IMG/VR virus record: IMGVR_UViG_3300030012_004149
Location: 1-31,524 of that record
Reading direction: 5' to 3' (one strand)
Source of the DNA: a virus
DNA: 31,524 nt
Below, piece after piece: positions 13,183-22,675 of the stretch (position 1 is its first letter; every line of letters starts with the position of its first letter). The notes beneath the pieces are model-generated. The model was given only the letters and a program-made list of their open reading frames with translations, was not told where the DNA came from and did no database searches. The translations under genes were made by a program, and so were the position numbers.

Positions 13183-15735
13183 TTAATATCCTCCTCCGCT
13201 ACTTTGATTTTGATTTGGAGTTGAGGTTTGTGTTGGCGGTGTGGGTGTAGTAGTTGTTGTCTCTGTTGGAGTTGTAGTCATTGTTTCTGTTGGAGGTGTG
13301 GTCACTGTCTCTGTTGTTTGTGTTATAGGTGTGGTCGTAGTCGGAGTTGGTTCTACAGTTTCAATTTGGTTGGGTAAGTGTTCTTTTGGTGGGCAATCGA
13401 TTACACTAGTTATTCCAATTAGTGGTCTTACACCAGATGATCCATCCCTATCAGTCATTAACTGTGTATTATATTTCATAATTGGTATTAGTTCTCCGTT
13501 AAAACCAGTGTTACTATTAAACAATACAATCGGTCTCTTATCAAACTCGAAGTTATAATTTGTTGGTAGTTGTGCTCCTATTATAGAACCATTTGGTGTA
13601 ACTGTCAAGGATCCAGTAACTCCAGATCCCACAAGTGTGAATGTATCACCAGTAGTATATCCCAATCCTGGTTTAGAAACATATACACTAGTTACAATTC
13701 CAGAAACATTTGTTCCAATTCCAATGTTTATGCCATTATCTCCTTCGGTACCACCACTAACATCAAGGTCTCCTCCACAATATCCAGAACCTTGATTTAT
13801 AAGAACAATACTCTTTACAGAACCATTCTCTACTATTACAGATCCTCTTGCACCCTCACCATGATTACTCTTATCAAAAATAGTTATTGATGTCGCACTA
13901 TCATATCCACTTCCACCATTCAATACCTCAACTGAAAAGATTTGCCTATTATTTCCAACAATTGGTTTAACAATTGCACCTGTTCCTTCTCCATAAATTT
14001 CTGCTGCTGGTGGTATACATTGAGGATGTTTGACACCCACAGGTAGAGGACTTAAATCATCTTGAGTTCTTGGATTAAATATCCTATTATTGCAATCACT
14101 GAATGAGTCTGAACCATTGCCAAAGATAGAGTAAGATGCAATCGCTGCCTCTATTGATCCAAGTCCACCTTTCTCAAACAATTCTGATGTTTTGCCATCA
14201 GTTATTTTATCAATTGTTTTTAATAATTCATAAACATTAGATCCATTAATGATAGTTTTCTTTGCCTTATCTAAATTTTCACCTGCGATCCACCCTGCTA
14301 ACTCTTGTCTTCCTAATTGTTTTTCTACTTCTGTTAAATCTTTTTGAACTCCTCCTAAGAAATCAGTTCCCTCAAGTATTTTACTCCAATTATCCGCCTT
14401 AACTTTTATTGCTCCTCCAAAATTAGTTACCCACTCACTTGTTTCATCACATTTAACACCAGTACAATCTAAAAATGCTATAATTTTCTTTGCAAAACTA
14501 CTTGCTTTTGACAATACATTAGTAATATTCCCAAGTCCACCTGTCAACCAATTGATTCCAGAAAGTATCGGACTCGTTACTTTTTTAACCATGTCCATTA
14601 CCTTACCTAGTATACCTGATGTGAATTGTTCCACAGCACATGTGCCAACGTTTATTATCTTTCCAAGTAATGATTTTATTATATTTTCTACGAATCCAAA
14701 TATGTCACCAAATATACCATCAAACAAACAAAAAAGTATTTTTATAATTTTCTTAAATGCTTTCTGTGCTGCTGGACCTAAAAAGAAATCAAGAGGGTTA
14801 AGTTTCTTACCAATTGCTGCAAAAATTTTAAAGAGTTTCATTACTCTTTTTATTAGTCCCGTGCGAATATTGTTTAATATTTTTTTAATTATTCTCTGTA
14901 TTTGTCTGGCAGTCTCTCTGATTCTGTCTTCCATATCTATTATCGCATTCGTAATAGGATCTATGAAATTACCTTGAAATGATTCAAGAACACTTGTAAA
15001 TTTAACAAAATCATTTAATACTTTTGCTATATCTCCAATTACATTATCCTCACATAGAGATGGATTAACTTGTGTTCTAGTATATTTTTTTGTGAAAGCC
15101 TCTGCAGCAGCACTACTTATTGTGTTTCCATCTTTATCAAATAATACATTACTTGATTCATTTGTTATTCCTAATTTATTTGATATACCTAAATCTACAG
15201 ATCCAAATTCAACTTTACCAGTGGTTGTTCCTACTCCTTGTTTAGCAGTCGGATCTTTTACTAACACTGAAGTTCTCTTTGTTCCCTTTACAACTTTACC
15301 TGTATATCCTGTAAAAGGTTTGAATTGATTACTACCACTTAATATTACCTCTTCTTCTGCTATTGAATTTGATACCTCATGTGATCTATGAAGTAATCCA
15401 ATGATGACAGGTTGTTGTGCATCCTCCCCATCAGCAAAAAATCCAATTGCAGTTTCACCACCAACTAGATTTATTGTATCTCCCATTGAACCCTGTCCAC
15501 TACCAGTTACAGGATCCATCATTACATTTGCCCAAGGAAGATCATTTTCTTTTAAAGTATCATCCCAAGGATGATATCCTATGATTCTAACTTTGACTCG
15601 ATGCGATTCAGATCCTGCAGCAGCAGAGGCAAGATTTTGAAGTTTCCAGTATTTTGGATGGGCGACTCTTCCTATCCACCAGGAAAAGCCGTCCTTACCA
15701 GAAAAATTAGATTTTAATAACTGTTCAGTGATCAT
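13183..15735 (-). CDS. gp5: gp5-like baseplate hub protein, OB-fold without lysozyme (850 aa)
   Basis: Residues about 15-117 match the N-terminal OB-fold of gp5/VgrG-type hub proteins (FSWWIGRVAHPKYW, HRVKVRIIGYHP, PWANVMMDP, GDTINLVGGETAIGFFADG, QQPVIIGLLHR). I see no T4-lysozyme domain after it. Instead come a long helical, partly hydrophobic region (about 240-500, e.g. IIKILFCLFDGIFGDIFGF), a beta region with GSGY-type turns (about 600-730), and a Thr/Pro-rich low-complexity tail ending in SSGGGY. T4 gp5 is 575 residues, so this protein is much longer and organised differently. It would sit at the centre of the baseplate on the gp27-like trimer. The start overlaps the CP12-like gene as TAATG. 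Confidence 0.85.
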   Translation of the reverse strand: MITEQLLKSNFSGKDGFSWWIGRVAHPKYWKLQNLASAAAGSESHRVKVRIIGYHPWDDTLKENDLPWANVMMDPVTGSGQGSMGDTINLVGGETAIGFFADGEDAQQPVIIGLLHRSHEVSNSIAEEEVILSGSNQFKPFTGYTGKVVKGTKRTSVLVKDPTAKQGVGTTTGKVEFGSVDLGISNKLGITNESSNVLFDKDGNTISSAAAEAFTKKYTRTQVNPSLCEDNVIGDIAKVLNDFVKFTSVLESFQGNFIDPITNAIIDMEDRIRETARQIQRIIKKILNNIRTGLIKRVMKLFKIFAAIGKKLNPLDFFLGPAAQKAFKKIIKILFCLFDGIFGDIFGFVENIIKSLLGKIINVGTCAVEQFTSGILGKVMDMVKKVTSPILSGINWLTGGLGNITNVLSKASSFAKKIIAFLDCTGVKCDETSEWVTNFGGAIKVKADNWSKILEGTDFLGGVQKDLTEVEKQLGRQELAGWIAGENLDKAKKTIINGSNVYELLKTIDKITDGKTSELFEKGGLGSIEAAIASYSIFGNGSDSFSDCNNRIFNPRTQDDLSPLPVGVKHPQCIPPAAEIYGEGTGAIVKPIVGNNRQIFSVEVLNGGSGYDSATSITIFDKSNHGEGARGSVIVENGSVKSIVLINQGSGYCGGDLDVSGGTEGDNGINIGIGTNVSGIVTSVYVSKPGLGYTTGDTFTLVGSGVTGSLTVTPNGSIIGAQLPTNYNFEFDKRPIVLFNSNTGFNGELIPIMKYNTQLMTDRDGSSGVRPLIGITSVIDCPPKEHLPNQIETVEPTPTTTTPITQTTETVTTPPTETMTTTPTETTTTTPTPPTQTSTPNQNQSSGGGY

Positions 15736-15962
15736 TAGTCGTCATATACCAGACACTCTGGTTCGTCTGGATGTTGATCACAGAATAATTCAAGTGCATT
15801 GGGGTCATGATGATCTCCTGCTTTGATCTCATCCTTATGATGTTCTACATACTCTTCGAGATCATGTAACTCTTCTATCGTATGCCTTTTCATTGGCTCA
15901 GATGTATTTGGATCGGCAAGAAGTTCCTTGTCGTATTGAATGTGGTCTTCGATTGATTTCAT
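15735..15962 (-). CDS. CP12-like small protein (75 aa), putative Calvin-cycle inhibitor
   Basis: The C-terminus LELFCDQHPDEPECLVYDD carries Cys61 and Cys70 in a C-x8-C arrangement ending in a Tyr-Asp-Asp tail. This closely resembles the GAPDH-binding C-terminus of cyanobacterial CP12 (C-x8-C...YED). CP12 bridges GAPDH and phosphoribulokinase and switches off the Calvin cycle; cyanophages are known to carry cp12 as an auxiliary metabolic gene. The N-terminal Cys pair of full CP12 is absent, and the helical core (HTIEELHDLEEYVEHH) only loosely recalls the usual core motif. A strong Shine-Dalgarno AGGAGA overlaps the stop codon of the hub gene. The gene sits between two baseplate hub genes, which is unexpected for a metabolic gene. 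An alternative is a virion protein that merely resembles CP12. Confidence 0.7.
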   Translation of the reverse strand: MKSIEDHIQYDKELLADPNTSEPMKRHTIEELHDLEEYVEHHKDEIKAGDHHDPNALELFCDQHPDEPECLVYDD

Positions 15963-15971
15963 AATTGTCTC

Positions 15972-17294
15972 CTATTGATTTTGACCGTACAAACCATAAG
16001 AATCTCTCATAAGTGTAAGAGATGTCGAGTTTTGCCCATTTGAAAAGTGATGTCTTAATTGTCTAACGACATAATTACCACTCATCTGATCATCAACTTC
16101 AGTGGATTGTCCACCCTGTACTAAAGGAAATTCACAGTAAATAAGGTCTCCTACTTTTAATTTAACGTTCAGTGGTACTAAAATATTTAGTGCCTGAGTG
16201 AACAACAAATTAATTCTTGACATGGATTTTGCTAACATAGCATCACCACCACTATCTGATTGTGACTCAGTTAATGATCCACTAGGATCTAAAGTGCCAT
16301 GATCAGAAGTTCTAAGCATGGTTCTTGTAGGAACACTTGCAAAATCACTATTCACTGTTATTGATTCTTCATTACCTAGTTTCGTTGCATCTCCAATTTC
16401 ATCTTTCAATTTATAATTATAAAGAGAGAGCACATTTTTTCGAGTATCATAATAATAAAACTGATTATTATACATTCCAACTGTTAGTGCTTTTCTCAAA
16501 TCAATATTTTTACTAAGGTTATAATTTAAAATAGTTACATTGTTTCTAAGTTTTCCTGCCTCTATAACTTTACCAGTATAACTATATGAAAATTTAGGTT
16601 CACGATCAGAACTATTATTTTGGATTTGAGTGTTCGCTACTAAACTATCAATGCTTCTATAATGATACCCATCATAATTTTCGTAACATAAAAATCCAGC
16701 AGTCCCTTTACTTTCTGCATACTTCCCTTCACCTGAGACTCCACTCTTTTTTGTATGGACTGATATCGATTTAGATCCTAACCAAGATAAAGTATAGAAT
16801 GGTTTTTTAGTATTACCAATAAATGTATAAGAGTTTGCAGTCGGTTCAATTTTAACATCTTTTTTTGTTTGTAATGTATTTTTTAAAATATCTTCTACAT
16901 GAGTATCAATAGTTTTAAATTGATACTTCTTCACACACCTTGTGCTTTGGTTGGAAAAATGTTCTAATGATGTCAAATGTATTGTACACTCCTCTACCAT
17001 TCTCTGTGTGTTCCAATCACTAACTTTATAAACATATAAAGCATTATCTCCTTCAAATATGGTATCTCCAAATGAAGACATTATATTTAACTCTACTTTT
17101 TCTCCACCACGTATCGGAAGTTGATTGACATAACTAAAACTTGAAACAATTTTCATTGTTGCAGTAACTGATTGTTGTAGTATATCTTCAAAGTAATCAA
17201 ACTCTATAATTGATCTACTGATATCAAAAGATTTTCCATCTAAAGATATAATTCTTCCTATTCGATATAAAATTGTTGATACTGCGTCTGACAT
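15972..17294 (-). CDS. gp27-like baseplate hub protein (440 aa)
   Basis: The N-terminal half is a tail-tube-like beta-barrel domain (FDISRSIIEFDYFEDILQQS; VKIVSSFSYVN-type strands; VEECTIHLTSLEHF). The C-terminus has the hub signature VKLKVGDLIYCEFP, then GNYVVRQLRHHF and TSLTLMRDSYG. This pattern is shared by gp27/gpD-type central hub subunits, which form the trimer that carries gp5. Length is close to T4 gp27 (391). It lies between the tape-measure-region genes and the gp5-like gene, as expected for a hub. It is assigned by pattern and synteny rather than strong sequence identity, so the gp27 equivalence is an inference. Confidence 0.7.
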   Translation of the reverse strand: MSDAVSTILYRIGRIISLDGKSFDISRSIIEFDYFEDILQQSVTATMKIVSSFSYVNQLPIRGGEKVELNIMSSFGDTIFEGDNALYVYKVSDWNTQRMVEECTIHLTSLEHFSNQSTRCVKKYQFKTIDTHVEDILKNTLQTKKDVKIEPTANSYTFIGNTKKPFYTLSWLGSKSISVHTKKSGVSGEGKYAESKGTAGFLCYENYDGYHYRSIDSLVANTQIQNNSSDREPKFSYSYTGKVIEAGKLRNNVTILNYNLSKNIDLRKALTVGMYNNQFYYYDTRKNVLSLYNYKLKDEIGDATKLGNEESITVNSDFASVPTRTMLRTSDHGTLDPSGSLTESQSDSGGDAMLAKSMSRINLLFTQALNILVPLNVKLKVGDLIYCEFPLVQGGQSTEVDDQMSGNYVVRQLRHHFSNGQNSTSLTLMRDSYGLYGQNQ

Positions 17295-17295
17295 T

Positions 17296-18762
17296 TTAGT
17301 TTTTATCTAATTTGAATAGTAACAAATCATCTGCTACATTATCATCTGAATTGATATCTATTATATTAGTATTAAAATTAATATTTAATCCATTACTACC
17401 ACTTATAGATTTAGAGGATTTTGTTGCATCAAATGGTAAAATAAATTGTTCTCCGTTTTGAATTATAGTTAGAGAAGTCTTACCATCAAAATTTACTTCA
17501 GGTTTTAAATTTTCAATTAATTGTTTTGTTTCTTTATTCTCAGGCATTAATAACAATTTATCAGTCTGTTCTTTTAATTCTTCATCAGACAATCTCATTA
17601 CCTTTTGTATTTCATTTTCATAGTGTGAGTCCATTAATGAATCTGGATCATTTTTTTGTTGTTCTTCAATTTGTTTTACCAACATATTTTTTCTTAGTCT
17701 ATTCTCTTTTTCTTTATTGGAGAGATGAGAAAATGCACCGTTCTCTTCTTTTAATGCATCTTCTAATGGTTTAACACCTAATTTTTCTTCTCTCTCTTTA
17801 TCTTTTTGTTTCTTTGATTTAAGAACATTAAGGAAATCAATTTTACCAAGAATTGTACTATCATCATCAAATACATTAAAGTCTCTTGCAATATCAACTG
17901 CTGCAACTGGTATGCCAAGAATAGGAATTGCACTCAACGTTGATAGAACACCACCAGTAACATCTCCTTTTTTGAATCTATACGCTGCCATACTTAAGTC
18001 CACAGCAATACCACCAATTACAGTAAGTTCACCTGCTGTTAAACTTGCTAATTTTGGTCCTGCTTTTTTTGTAACTTTTTGAATTATATTAGTGGATGCC
18101 TTGACAACTTTTGAATTTGTAACAACTTCCTTACCCACCTTAACTGCATCATCCGCAATAGTTTTTAGTTTATTTGCTTTTGATAGTATATTTTTAACAA
18201 ATTTGGAATTCTTTAAATTTTTTAAGAAATTTTTTATACCTAATATTGCTTCGTCAAAATTTTTTCTTATAAAAGTCTTTACCTGATTAAATTTTTTACG
18301 TCCCCAGTTTATTATTTTACCAGGAAGTTGTCTAAAAAATCTTCCGAGTCGTCTAAATCGCATCGTTCTATTTCTCCACCATCTCTTCAATCTAAGTCTT
18401 AATCCTCTTGGAATTAAATTTTTCAAACCCTTAAGTAATCTTACAAGTTTCATCGCTGTAAGTGCTAACTTACCTGCTATTGGTGTTAATAATAGTGATG
18501 CCAATAGACCTAATCCACCACCTCCACCACCGCCATCATCATCCGATTTAATATCTTTTGATTTTGGTAAATTAATTTTCAATAATTCTTTATTACTTGA
18601 TTCAATAAATTTTATAAATTTATCATACTCATGTTTCTTATCAAAATCTATTGATTTTACTTTATTAAATGTAGGTGAAGTTACTATTTTATTTGCTGCT
18701 TTCACAAGAGGTGAATTCAACGTGCTTTGTCTAGGTACTCGAACTGGTGCTGGATTTACCAT
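17296..18762 (-). CDS. Arg-rich, membrane-segment tail protein; tape-measure candidate (488 aa)
   Basis: A run of seven Gly (residues 77-83) precedes a hydrophobic helix (about 84-106). A very basic stretch follows (about 117-146, with LRLRLKRWWRNRTMRFRRLG) and then Lys-rich helices. Two more hydrophobic segments lie at about 240-262 and 270-292. The C-terminal 190 residues are charged helix and then an Asn/Asp-rich beta tail. The gene lies in the interval between gp51 and the gp27-like hub, close to where T4 keeps its tape-measure gene 29. Hydrophobic segments in a tail-interior protein fit a tape measure or an ejected pore-forming protein. I do not recognise a named family. It abuts both neighbours with one-base gaps. 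Confidence 0.65.
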   Translation of the reverse strand: MVNPAPVRVPRQSTLNSPLVKAANKIVTSPTFNKVKSIDFDKKHEYDKFIKFIESSNKELLKINLPKSKDIKSDDDGGGGGGGLGLLASLLLTPIAGKLALTAMKLVRLLKGLKNLIPRGLRLRLKRWWRNRTMRFRRLGRFFRQLPGKIINWGRKKFNQVKTFIRKNFDEAILGIKNFLKNLKNSKFVKNILSKANKLKTIADDAVKVGKEVVTNSKVVKASTNIIQKVTKKAGPKLASLTAGELTVIGGIAVDLSMAAYRFKKGDVTGGVLSTLSAIPILGIPVAAVDIARDFNVFDDDSTILGKIDFLNVLKSKKQKDKEREEKLGVKPLEDALKEENGAFSHLSNKEKENRLRKNMLVKQIEEQQKNDPDSLMDSHYENEIQKVMRLSDEELKEQTDKLLLMPENKETKQLIENLKPEVNFDGKTSLTIIQNGEQFILPFDATKSSKSISGSNGLNINFNTNIIDINSDDNVADDLLLFKLDKN

Positions 18763-18763
18763 A

Positions 18764-20296
18764 TTATACTACTCCAAGAAGACTTTTTGTTGATATATTA
18801 GATGCATCTGGATTAGATGAAGAGTAAAATTTCTGAGTAGGTCCTGATGCTGACCCTCTACCACTATCATTATTGACCATCGCAACCTTTTTACCTTTCC
18901 CCCCACTAATCATTTGAAGATCTTTCGTGTTATCAATTACAATAATTTCACCCTTACTTTCACCTTTCAAAAGTGTACTTAGATCTTGATCTTTATATTT
19001 TGATTCTTGAGATTTAATAAGGTCGAGCACAGAAGTATTCGCTTTATTCATTTTATCAGTATCATATACACCCTCACCGCTAGTAGTTTTAATAGATGCA
19101 AATTGTTCTGCTAATCTATTGTTAAACTCTTCTGCAGTTATATCTCCCGCTTCAAATTCTTTTAGACCAGAGTAATTTAAATAATATTCTGACATCATAT
19201 CTTGAGTCTTTTTATCAAAGACAGTTGTTTCTGGATCAAGATTCATCATTTCTGCAACCTTTTTAGGATTTAGCATTTGATATGCACCCATCGCAGCACT
19301 CCTATCATCTCCACGACCAATTGATGTTTGATAATTTAGATAATCTGTTTGTAGTTTATCAACGTCACTGATTGTCATCTTTGTTATGTCTTCATCACCA
19401 CGTTCAAATCCTTCACGATCTCTGCTATACATTGCACCATAATCAGTATTAGATTCTCCTTCAGCAATTTTTCCTTTTAATTGATCTTTAAATGAATTTT
19501 CTATACCATTAATTAAATCCTCACCATTCTGATTTTGATTAGACGAATCCGCTTTTTCTATTTTTAATGTATTATCAGATTTTTCAACTGGTTCATTTTC
19601 TTCTTTTTTAGTGTTACTCTCTAAGTTTGTACCATTCTTGAATCCTTCCATGAAATTATTAAATGCATCCGTTATAGTTTGGATTAAACCTTTTGATGAA
19701 TTGTCCAAATCTGAATTTAATTTATCGTCATCATATTCTTCAACTTCAAGTTTGCTATTATCTGCTTCAATATCTTCATCCAATCCATTCACTACCGTAT
19801 TAGATAATTCTTCCTCTATTTTTTTAACATCTACTTCTTTTTCTTCTACATTTTCTTTCTTATCTGAAAGTAATTTTCCAGCACCCATACCAAGACCGAG
19901 ACCAGCACCACCCACAAGAGCTGCACCAACTAATACCCCACTATAATTTTTTGATTTACTCCCTACACTATTCGCTGCATTCATACGTAATAGTTTAGCA
20001 ATCTCAAATGTCTCAACTAAAGTATTCCTTAGTAATTGTAAATTTTTTCTAATTATTTTCTCATTCCTTTCTGTTCCAAATGTACCTAACATATTAAATA
20101 GTGTTCTTGTTCCTCTTTTATTTCTTACTTCTGGATTTCTTTCTTGTAATTTTGAAAATAAGTTATCACTATCTGTAATATTTCTAACTAAAGGATTTAC
20201 ACCTTTAGATTTTGCTCCACCATAAACTCCCTTACTTCCCTTAACTATTTTGTTAGGTTGAATATTAGGTTTAATTTTAGGAAGTTTAGGTTCCAT
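18764..20296 (-). CDS. Tail protein with lysozyme-like domain and membrane segment (510 aa)
   Basis: Residues 118-142 form a Gly-rich hydrophobic segment (GVLVGAALVGGAGLGLGMGA). A long acidic linker follows. Residues about 270-425 resemble lambda-R/GH104-type lysozyme-like domains: KIAEGESNTDYGAMY aligns E279 with the catalytic Glu of a SEGTD-type motif; then come MTISDVDKLQ, AAMGAYQML (the GxYQ motif), FDKKTQDMM, and the ITAEEFNNRLAEQFASI helix before a short GEGVYD. Family knowledge says such domains cleave peptidoglycan. This protein could therefore act as the tail-associated lysozyme that gp5 lacks here. Its position beside the hub and hub-assembly genes fits a tail component. The start overlaps the gp51-like stop by 11 bases. 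Confidence 0.7.
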   Translation of the reverse strand: MEPKLPKIKPNIQPNKIVKGSKGVYGGAKSKGVNPLVRNITDSDNLFSKLQERNPEVRNKRGTRTLFNMLGTFGTERNEKIIRKNLQLLRNTLVETFEIAKLLRMNAANSVGSKSKNYSGVLVGAALVGGAGLGLGMGAGKLLSDKKENVEEKEVDVKKIEEELSNTVVNGLDEDIEADNSKLEVEEYDDDKLNSDLDNSSKGLIQTITDAFNNFMEGFKNGTNLESNTKKEENEPVEKSDNTLKIEKADSSNQNQNGEDLINGIENSFKDQLKGKIAEGESNTDYGAMYSRDREGFERGDEDITKMTISDVDKLQTDYLNYQTSIGRGDDRSAAMGAYQMLNPKKVAEMMNLDPETTVFDKKTQDMMSEYYLNYSGLKEFEAGDITAEEFNNRLAEQFASIKTTSGEGVYDTDKMNKANTSVLDLIKSQESKYKDQDLSTLLKGESKGEIIVIDNTKDLQMISGGKGKKVAMVNNDSGRGSASGPTQKFYSSSNPDASNISTKSLLGVV

Positions 20297-20474
20297 AGTC
20301 TGCTTGTTGCTGTCTTGCCTTTAAATTTTCTTCCTCAATGTACTGATTTAATAATCCAAGATAGATATCTCTCTCCCAAGGCATCATGTTTTCAATTTCA
20401 GTCAAAGAGTATTTATGGTGTTGCATCAAGGCAAAGTTAAGTTTAAAGTATGACTCAAGATCAATATGAGACAT
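20286..20474 (-). CDS. gp51: gp51-like baseplate hub assembly protein (62 aa)
   Basis: The product reads MSHIDLESYFKLNFALMQHH, then KYSLTEIENMMPWERDIYLG. This motif set, ending in a charged Gln-rich helix, is how I remember the short gp51 or tail-chaperone-like protein of T4-like cyanophages. I chose the ATG at 20474 because the longer frame would begin at a TTG at 20480. With the ATG, the gp26 stop (TGA at 20479-20477) lies two bases before the start. The gene is far shorter than T4 gp51 (249 residues), so equivalence rests on synteny and cyanophage annotation practice. Paired with gp26, it resembles the chaperone pair that precedes tape-measure genes in other tailed phages. Confidence 0.65.
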   Translation of the reverse strand: MSHIDLESYFKLNFALMQHHKYSLTEIENMMPWERDIYLGLLNQYIEEENLKARQQQADYGT

Positions 20475-21235: not shown

Positions 21236-22675
21236 TTAGTAACCTCCTCCTCCACTTGGTGGTGTGTATCCACCGCCACCACCACCTTGCTGACCACCAC
21301 CTTGTTGACCACCACCTTGTTGACCACCAGAGGGACTGGTATCAATTGTGTGTGAAATAGTGGTTGTGTTTGATACGTTACCAGAGGAATCGGTAGCAGT
21401 AACAGCGAAAGGATATGTTCCATCTGCTAATGCAGATACAACTGTGATCGTAAATGTTCCATTTGAACCAGCACTAGTGCTACCTAATTCTATAGAACCA
21501 GTAGTCAATTTAACCGTGCTACCAGCCTCTGCTTGACCTGTAATTGTTGGTGTATTAACATTTGATGCAGTTGTAACACTTACATTTTCTGGTGCTGCTG
21601 GTGGTGTGGTATCTGCTGGTGGTTGCTGCTGTCCCTGTTGATTACCTTGTTGCTGTGGTGGTTCAGTAGTAGTTGTAGTTATACCACTTGCTATCAAACT
21701 TTCCTGTAAGGTATCGTATATGATATTATGTGGATAACTTAAGTGAGCAGCACCAACCATTCTAACAACCGATCCGTCATCTCTTACATGTCTATGGAAT
21801 GGTCCAGTGTAAAGTTCACCATTTACATATCCAGGTTGAGTAGTTGTCTTCGCACTAGTTGCACCCAACTGTCCTACCACTGAATTATCATAGTTCTTTA
21901 TAACATCCTCACCAAATACATTTTTAGAATAAAGATCATCTTTATCATTATTTGTGATAACATTATATCGAAGATATTGAAATTCAATTGTCACCTTCAT
22001 AACACTTGTTCCTTGATAAGTTAAAGGTATCGCAACTATGTTACTTGGGAATGCATCAATGAATTGATAAAATAAAAGTGATCCAGGAATCAAGTCATCA
22101 CCATCACGGATGCGAGTCTCATTCATATTCGCACCACCATAAAAATCTTTTTCAAATTTAGTTACTATTAGTCTTCTTTTGTATTGATCTGGATATCTAA
22201 ATTTATAATAATTATTTCTATCACTGTATCCATTTGTTCCTTGATATGATCCTTTGTATCTTCCACTACTATTATGAATGGGATTGATATAATTCATCCA
22301 CTCTTCAAATAATCTAAGAATATTGTAATCAGAATCAACATAAAATGTAACGGACAGTGGTGCATATAATCTTCTCTGAGCAAATCTTTCTATTGTTCCT
22401 TGCCTATCTCCCATGCTTTCTGCCATGTCAAATGACGCACCAGGTAGGGTCACATCAGATGCAAAAAAATCGTATCTGCCTATATTTTCTGCACTATTTA
22501 CTATTCCACATGCATTTAACCATGAACTTAAACTATTTTCAGATTCCTGTCCACTCTCAAATCCAATACCAAGCGTTACTTTAAACTCTGCAGTCAGAGA
22601 CAGAGGAAACAGATCGCTCTGGGCATCATTTATCTTCTTATATAACGGTAGTACAGAGTTTTTTATTTCTGCCAT
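21236..22675 (-). CDS. Tail-tube-like baseplate protein (gp54-like) with Ig-like domain and GGGGY tail (479 aa)
   Basis: Residues about 20-240 have the layout of the tail-tube fold shared by gp19, gp48 and gp54 (DVTLPGASFDMAES, RRLYAPLSVTFYVDSDYNIL, LFEEWMNYINP, TYQGTSVMKVTIEFQYLRYN). Residues 278-320 carry a His-rich motif (YTGPFHRH then MVGAAHLSYPH). A Gln/Pro linker leads to one bacterial Ig-like domain (about 354-446: TPPAAPENVSV, TITGQAEAGSTVKL, ALADGTYPFAVTATDSSGNVS). The end is three QQGGG repeats closing in SGGGGY. T4 gp54 has 320 residues, so the C-terminal 150-200 residues are additions. It is the first gene of the leftward tail cluster. The gp54 equivalence is moderate; the tube-fold call is stronger. 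Confidence 0.7.
   Translation of the reverse strand: MAEIKNSVLPLYKKINDAQSDLFPLSLTAEFKVTLGIGFESGQESENSLSSWLNACGIVNSAENIGRYDFFASDVTLPGASFDMAESMGDRQGTIERFAQRRLYAPLSVTFYVDSDYNILRLFEEWMNYINPIHNSSGRYKGSYQGTNGYSDRNNYYKFRYPDQYKRRLIVTKFEKDFYGGANMNETRIRDGDDLIPGSLLFYQFIDAFPSNIVAIPLTYQGTSVMKVTIEFQYLRYNVITNNDKDDLYSKNVFGEDVIKNYDNSVVGQLGATSAKTTTQPGYVNGELYTGPFHRHVRDDGSVVRMVGAAHLSYPHNIIYDTLQESLIASGITTTTTEPPQQQGNQQGQQQPPADTTPPAAPENVSVTTASNVNTPTITGQAEAGSTVKLTTGSIELGSTSAGSNGTFTITVVSALADGTYPFAVTATDSSGNVSNTTTISHTIDTSPSGGQQGGGQQGGGQQGGGGGGYTPPSGGGGY
21281..21325 (-). repeat. 15-bp tandem repeat (three copies) encoding QQGGG units
   Basis: Three adjacent 15-base units (21281-21295, 21296-21310, 21311-21325) differ at one position only. 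They lie in frame near the 3' end of the tail-tube-like gene and encode Gly/Gln linker units. The near identity suggests recent expansion or contraction, for example by slippage. Confidence 0.9.

Follow-up and report, generated by a model that had tools for sequence, protein, structure and literature searches.

The CP12 protein of cyanophages is a textbook example of how a virus can redirect the carbon metabolism of its host. The cp12 gene is carried by 15 of 16 cyanomyovirus genomes at variable positions, including positions near gp5 (Sullivan et al. 2010, PMC3037559). CP12 is known to bind GAPDH through its C-terminal tail, which carries the CxxxPxxxxC loop (PMC9406205), and CP12 forms possessing only the C-terminal Cys pair have been described in cyanobacteria and phages (PMC3906501). 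The stretch of viral DNA analysed here (31,524 nucleotides, referred to below as the window) contains an ORF of this kind. It occupies positions 15735..15962, exactly as the original prediction had placed it between two baseplate hub genes, and lies on the minus strand, which had not been specified. The 75-aa product (15962..15735) is MKSIEDHIQYDKELLADPNTSEPMKRHTIEELHDLEEYVEHHKDEIKAGDHHDPNALELFCDQHPDEPECLVYDD.

The last 19 residues, LELFCDQHPDEPECLVYDD (15738..15794, minus strand), correspond to the GAPDH-binding tail. They include the predicted C-x8-C and YDD ending, found as C61-x8-C70 with the canonical CxxxPxxxxC spacing (C61DQHPDEPEC70 followed by LVYDD). Cys61 (codon 15780-15782, minus strand) and Cys70 (codon 15753-15755) are the sole Cys residues of the protein. 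The likeness to CP12, initially noticed only in this tail, proved to run through the whole protein. The Pfam CP12 profile (PF02672) matched with 44.6 bits and E=2.5e-11 against a gathering score of 22.7, the match spanning residues 3-74 of the product and positions 4-70 of the 70 in the profile, and phrog_627 matched with E=1.5e-37. The tail weakly matched the CP12 peptides in PDB entries 3zdf and 3b1j (E 0.02-0.07), and in NCBIfam neither the phage protein nor that of the host had a CP12 match. Judged by its sequence, the gene is a true full-length CP12 with the C-terminal Cys pair only, and with high confidence it can be assigned to the cyanophage CP12 auxiliary metabolic genes (T4-GC337 / phrog_627) of a T4-like cyanomyovirus. 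The cyanophage cp12 gene and its place by gp5 are already known, and the window provides one more member.

As was found by the tblastn search, relatives of the product are present in 435 phage records, all of them cyanophages or unassigned 'Marine virus' entries. The top relative was the P-TIM68 'CP12 protein' (82.7% identity), and a megablast search with the cp12 region did not find a close phage genome. A tblastn match in ACG-2014f (E 6) was considered as a hub-linked CP12 and rejected. Compared with CP12 of cyanophages P-TIM68, P-SSM4, S-SM1, S-SSM7 and S-RSM4 (55-83% identity), the protein shares the C-terminal-only Cys pair and the CxxxPxxxxC tail and, with most of them, the length and the position between the tail protein and gp5; nothing essential differs. 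The C-terminal pair is the only one in 80 of 80 IMG/VR phage CP12s, which are the closest relatives of the window's gene rather than a census; eight of them add one Cys at position 56. Cyanophage-type CP12 is also encoded on several contigs (L102-L104, L106-L110) that are assigned to genomes of Nonlabens, Euryarchaeota, Anaerolineales and Rhodopirellula. Most of these contigs carry phage hub genes as well, and they appear to be cyanophage DNA that was misbinned or entered as contamination.

Canonical CP12 of plants, algae and cyanobacteria (PF02672; PDB 3qv1, 6gfo, 3b1j) has the GAPDH-binding C-terminal tail and the overall CP12 profile in common with the window's protein, but it also possesses an N-terminal Cys pair and an AWD_VEE core. 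Neither was found in the window's sequence, where EELHDLEEY stands in place of the core. The absence of the N-terminal pair had been predicted correctly, but it is not a peculiarity of the phage. Chromosomal CP12s of Prochlorococcus, gathered by a genome scan, are 53-66% identical to the window's CP12 by tblastn over the full length. The two are collinear from end to end, with two interruptions: two residues are inserted near position 20, and ahead of DHHDP there is a gap of five residues that the Prochlorococcus proteins mostly lack. The Prochlorococcus CP12 (e.g. MIT 9401, L175) has 72 aa, begins with MKSIxxHI and carries a single Cys pair, both as in the phage, and contains LELFCDANPDEPECLVYDD; its tail is nearly identical to that of the phage protein. 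The core segment reads, for example, DELHSLEEY in the host versus EELHDLEEY in the window. The Cys pair, the central Pro and the final Asp are invariant among the aligned phage and host proteins.

The genomic neighbourhood was inspected in MIT 9401, where cp12 adjoins the Obg and glutathione-transferase (GST) genes; for the other contigs the host origin is presumed. Since 71 of the 71 presumed host CP12s possess the C-terminal Cys pair only, the missing N-terminal pair would most simply be an inherited trait and not a phage modification. We infer the host of this phage, of which the window is a fragment, from its relatives. In the Prochlorococcus assembly AG-402-N21, the CP12 (L139:1501-1734) contains the phage-type KEEIEAGDHHDP, which is absent from other host CP12s; a phage-host exchange within the gene is possible.

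The genes on both sides of cp12 encode tail proteins. Upstream, on the same strand, is a 440-aa tail/hub protein (15972..17294; phrog_350 'tail protein', 6.8e-92) belonging to the T4-GC15 family by synteny, with tblastn matches in 417 phage records, non-cyanophages included. Downstream is an 850-aa gp5-like baseplate hub subunit and tail lysozyme (13183..15735, minus strand; phrog_1922, 3.5e-97). Both tight junctions that had been predicted were found. The AGGAG ribosome-binding site (15969..15973, minus strand) overlaps the TAG at which the upstream gene ends (15974-15972) within TAGGAG, a few bases 5′ of the cp12 ATG. At the TAATG junction (15733..15737, minus strand), cp12 and gp5 overlap by one base: the stop codon TAA of the former (15737-15735) ends in the A that opens the ATG of the latter (15735-15733). 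A TAATG or TGATG junction between the two genes is also present in many relatives. The gp5-like protein finishes with a low-complexity Thr/Pro-rich tail (13183-13360, minus strand), and a tail-tube-like protein (phrog_45; 21236-21430, minus strand) with an Ig-like part followed by a Gln/Gly-rich low-complexity tail; both end in SGGGY or GGGGY.

The standard gene order of cyanomyoviruses is tail protein-cp12-gp5. The three genes follow one another with none intervening in S-SSM7, S-RSM4, S-CAM4, the freshwater phage DSL-LC03 and Sf-FS3, and both hub genes lie within 300 nt of cp12 in 43 of 49 IMG/VR loci; the 49 are those of the 80 closest relatives whose flanking sequence reaches 1.2 kb or more on each side, and they are not a census. 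This conserved position with its tight junctions in many phages, together with the location of P-TIM68 cp12 beside baseplate wedge genes, would be expected if a CP12-like tail had come to serve in the virion or in baseplate assembly, which was one of the two roles initially proposed. The comparison of loci makes such a reuse very improbable. The two hub genes abut each other with no cp12 between them in P-SSM2, ACG-2014f, S-CAM7 and Rhizobium phage P10VF, and cpeT, tRNA or other genes separate cp12 from gp5 in many phages (P-SSM4, P-RSM6, S-SM1, S-RIM8, P-TIM40, S-IOM18). In P-TIM68, P-HM2 and L053 the gene lies away from the hub pair, next to the wedge genes, next to talC and close to a helicase gene, respectively. 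Its sequence has suffered no loss at such places, and the CP12 of another locus lacking hub neighbours (L008) is 87% identical. The restriction of all tblastn matches to cyanophages and unassigned 'Marine virus' records is expected of a host-metabolism gene, and it is the entire protein that matches the host CP12. Moreover, S-CREM2 encodes a divergent cp12, yet the list of its 52 virion proteins (PMC10665884) does not include CP12. A virion structural protein was thus rejected by the synteny controls, there being no constant hub linkage and the hub module remaining intact elsewhere. Because the hub pair abuts in the absence of cp12 and cp12 is also located elsewhere, the gene appears to be an inserted metabolic gene, and the hub site a favoured place of insertion with no sign of a structural role.

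The best-supported role of the window's CP12, as far as can be judged from its sequence, is the inhibition of the Calvin cycle, the other role originally proposed. The AF2 model of the product (mean pLDDT 92) comprises an N-terminal helical hairpin (residues 4-16 and 22-41) and a C-terminal helix pair (56-63 and 68-73) bearing both Cys residues. A fold search of the PDB with this model gave neither a CP12 nor any significant hit, a result that carries little information, since most CP12 structures solved so far are disordered or short peptides. It seems that the phage lineage originally acquired cp12 from its host, Prochlorococcus or marine Synechococcus, and that the gene was inserted between the two adjacent baseplate genes. 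The protein would be made in the cytoplasm during infection, and its C-terminal tail, closed by a Cys61-Cys70 disulfide, would most likely dock on the host photosynthetic GAPDH (Gap2). The helical N-terminal half may recruit phosphoribulokinase (PRK), as in the host, although this step is uncertain. With the Calvin cycle slowed, NADPH, ATP and pentose phosphates would remain available to the phage for making nucleotides. It is known that the NADPH/NADP+ ratio doubles in the light in infected cells and that phage cp12 is highly expressed (PMC5082946); a comparison published in 2016 and cited in PMC10665884 is confounded by talC, gnd and zwf.

With the AWD_VEE core and the N-terminal Cys pair absent, the inhibition may involve GAPDH alone. 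Plants and algae require the N-terminal pair to form PRK complexes. In early studies, both Cys pairs proved necessary for the GAPDH/CP12/PRK complex (PMC3906501). A protein whose target is GAPDH only, or some other host partner, with no GAPDH-CP12-PRK complex formed, is a compatible variant of Calvin-cycle inhibition, and the uniform presence of the C-terminal pair only in the phage proteins is in line with it. However, the Prochlorococcus CP12 likewise lacks the N-terminal pair and an N-terminal helical hairpin is predicted, so PRK binding with no disulfide is possible. In view of both, we consider the variant a reasonable suspicion with a somewhat less than even chance of being right.

The time at which cp12 is expressed is of interest for the proposed inhibition. 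Late promoters of the S-PM2 type have the sequence NATAAATA (PMC2984593). Of the 84 distinct sequences upstream of phage cp12, 60 (71%) contain the motif TAAATA in the last 45 nt before the gene, compared with 13% for gp5, 22% for the tail gene, 15% for the starts of ORFs of at least 100 aa and 2.7% for random stretches; the scored sequences are related and the counts are not independent. It clusters at -25 to -38 from the phage cp12 starts (L001-L110; for example, L006:6574-6613 and L010:8961-9000), in hub-located and stand-alone copies alike, and is present in all 26 loci where neither hub gene was found. At the corresponding place upstream of host cp12 it was found in 2 of 61 sequences. Stand-alone copies (L012, L028, L031, L036, L050, L053, L055, L056 and similar) have a terminator-like C-run/G-run hairpin with a T run directly 3′ of the gene, which suggests a single-gene transcription unit.

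Whereas most cyanophage relatives possess TAAATA just upstream of cp12, the window's copy does not, and the same is true of S-SSM7, DSL-LC03 and Sf-FS3. The lack of a dedicated late-promoter motif could be taken as a sign that cp12 is a decaying passenger devoid of function, but the ORF is intact and preceded by a ribosome-binding site, and the median dN/dS of cp12 among the IMG/VR relatives is 0.07 (608 pairs with dS 0.1-1.5, which are not independent). This value places the gene under strong purifying selection and argues for a functional protein; decay is contradicted by the selection test and is hardly credible. RNA folding of the cp12 region was no better than that of shuffled sequences (z -0.04).

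In the window, the closest upstream exact NATAAATA (CATAAATA; 20410..20417, minus strand) is a candidate late promoter by pattern match only, the number of such matches in the window being at chance level. It precedes a packed run of tail genes (20296..13183) that includes cp12. Scans for sigma-70 promoters and terminators gave results at chance level. Because of the packed tail operon here and the late-promoter motifs in relatives, the late synthesis of CP12 assumed in the original prediction is plausible. This part is counterbalanced by P-HM2, where cp12 (L086:4971) has CATAAATA about 30 nt upstream and was measured as a middle gene, like all AMGs of this phage (PMC5082946). We tentatively propose, as a conceivable but rather doubtful scheme, that cp12 has its own gp55-type late promoter in most T4-like cyanophages and rides the packed tail operon here, Calvin-cycle inhibition thus proceeding in step with virion proteins and not only in the middle period as in P-HM2.

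For the understanding of phage CP12, the present locus suggests two corrections. The single Cys pair would be inherited from the picocyanobacterial CP12, and at the hub, cp12 would have been inserted into a pair of structural genes that functions in its absence. The promoter pattern, in turn, raises the question of when the Calvin cycle is blocked during infection.
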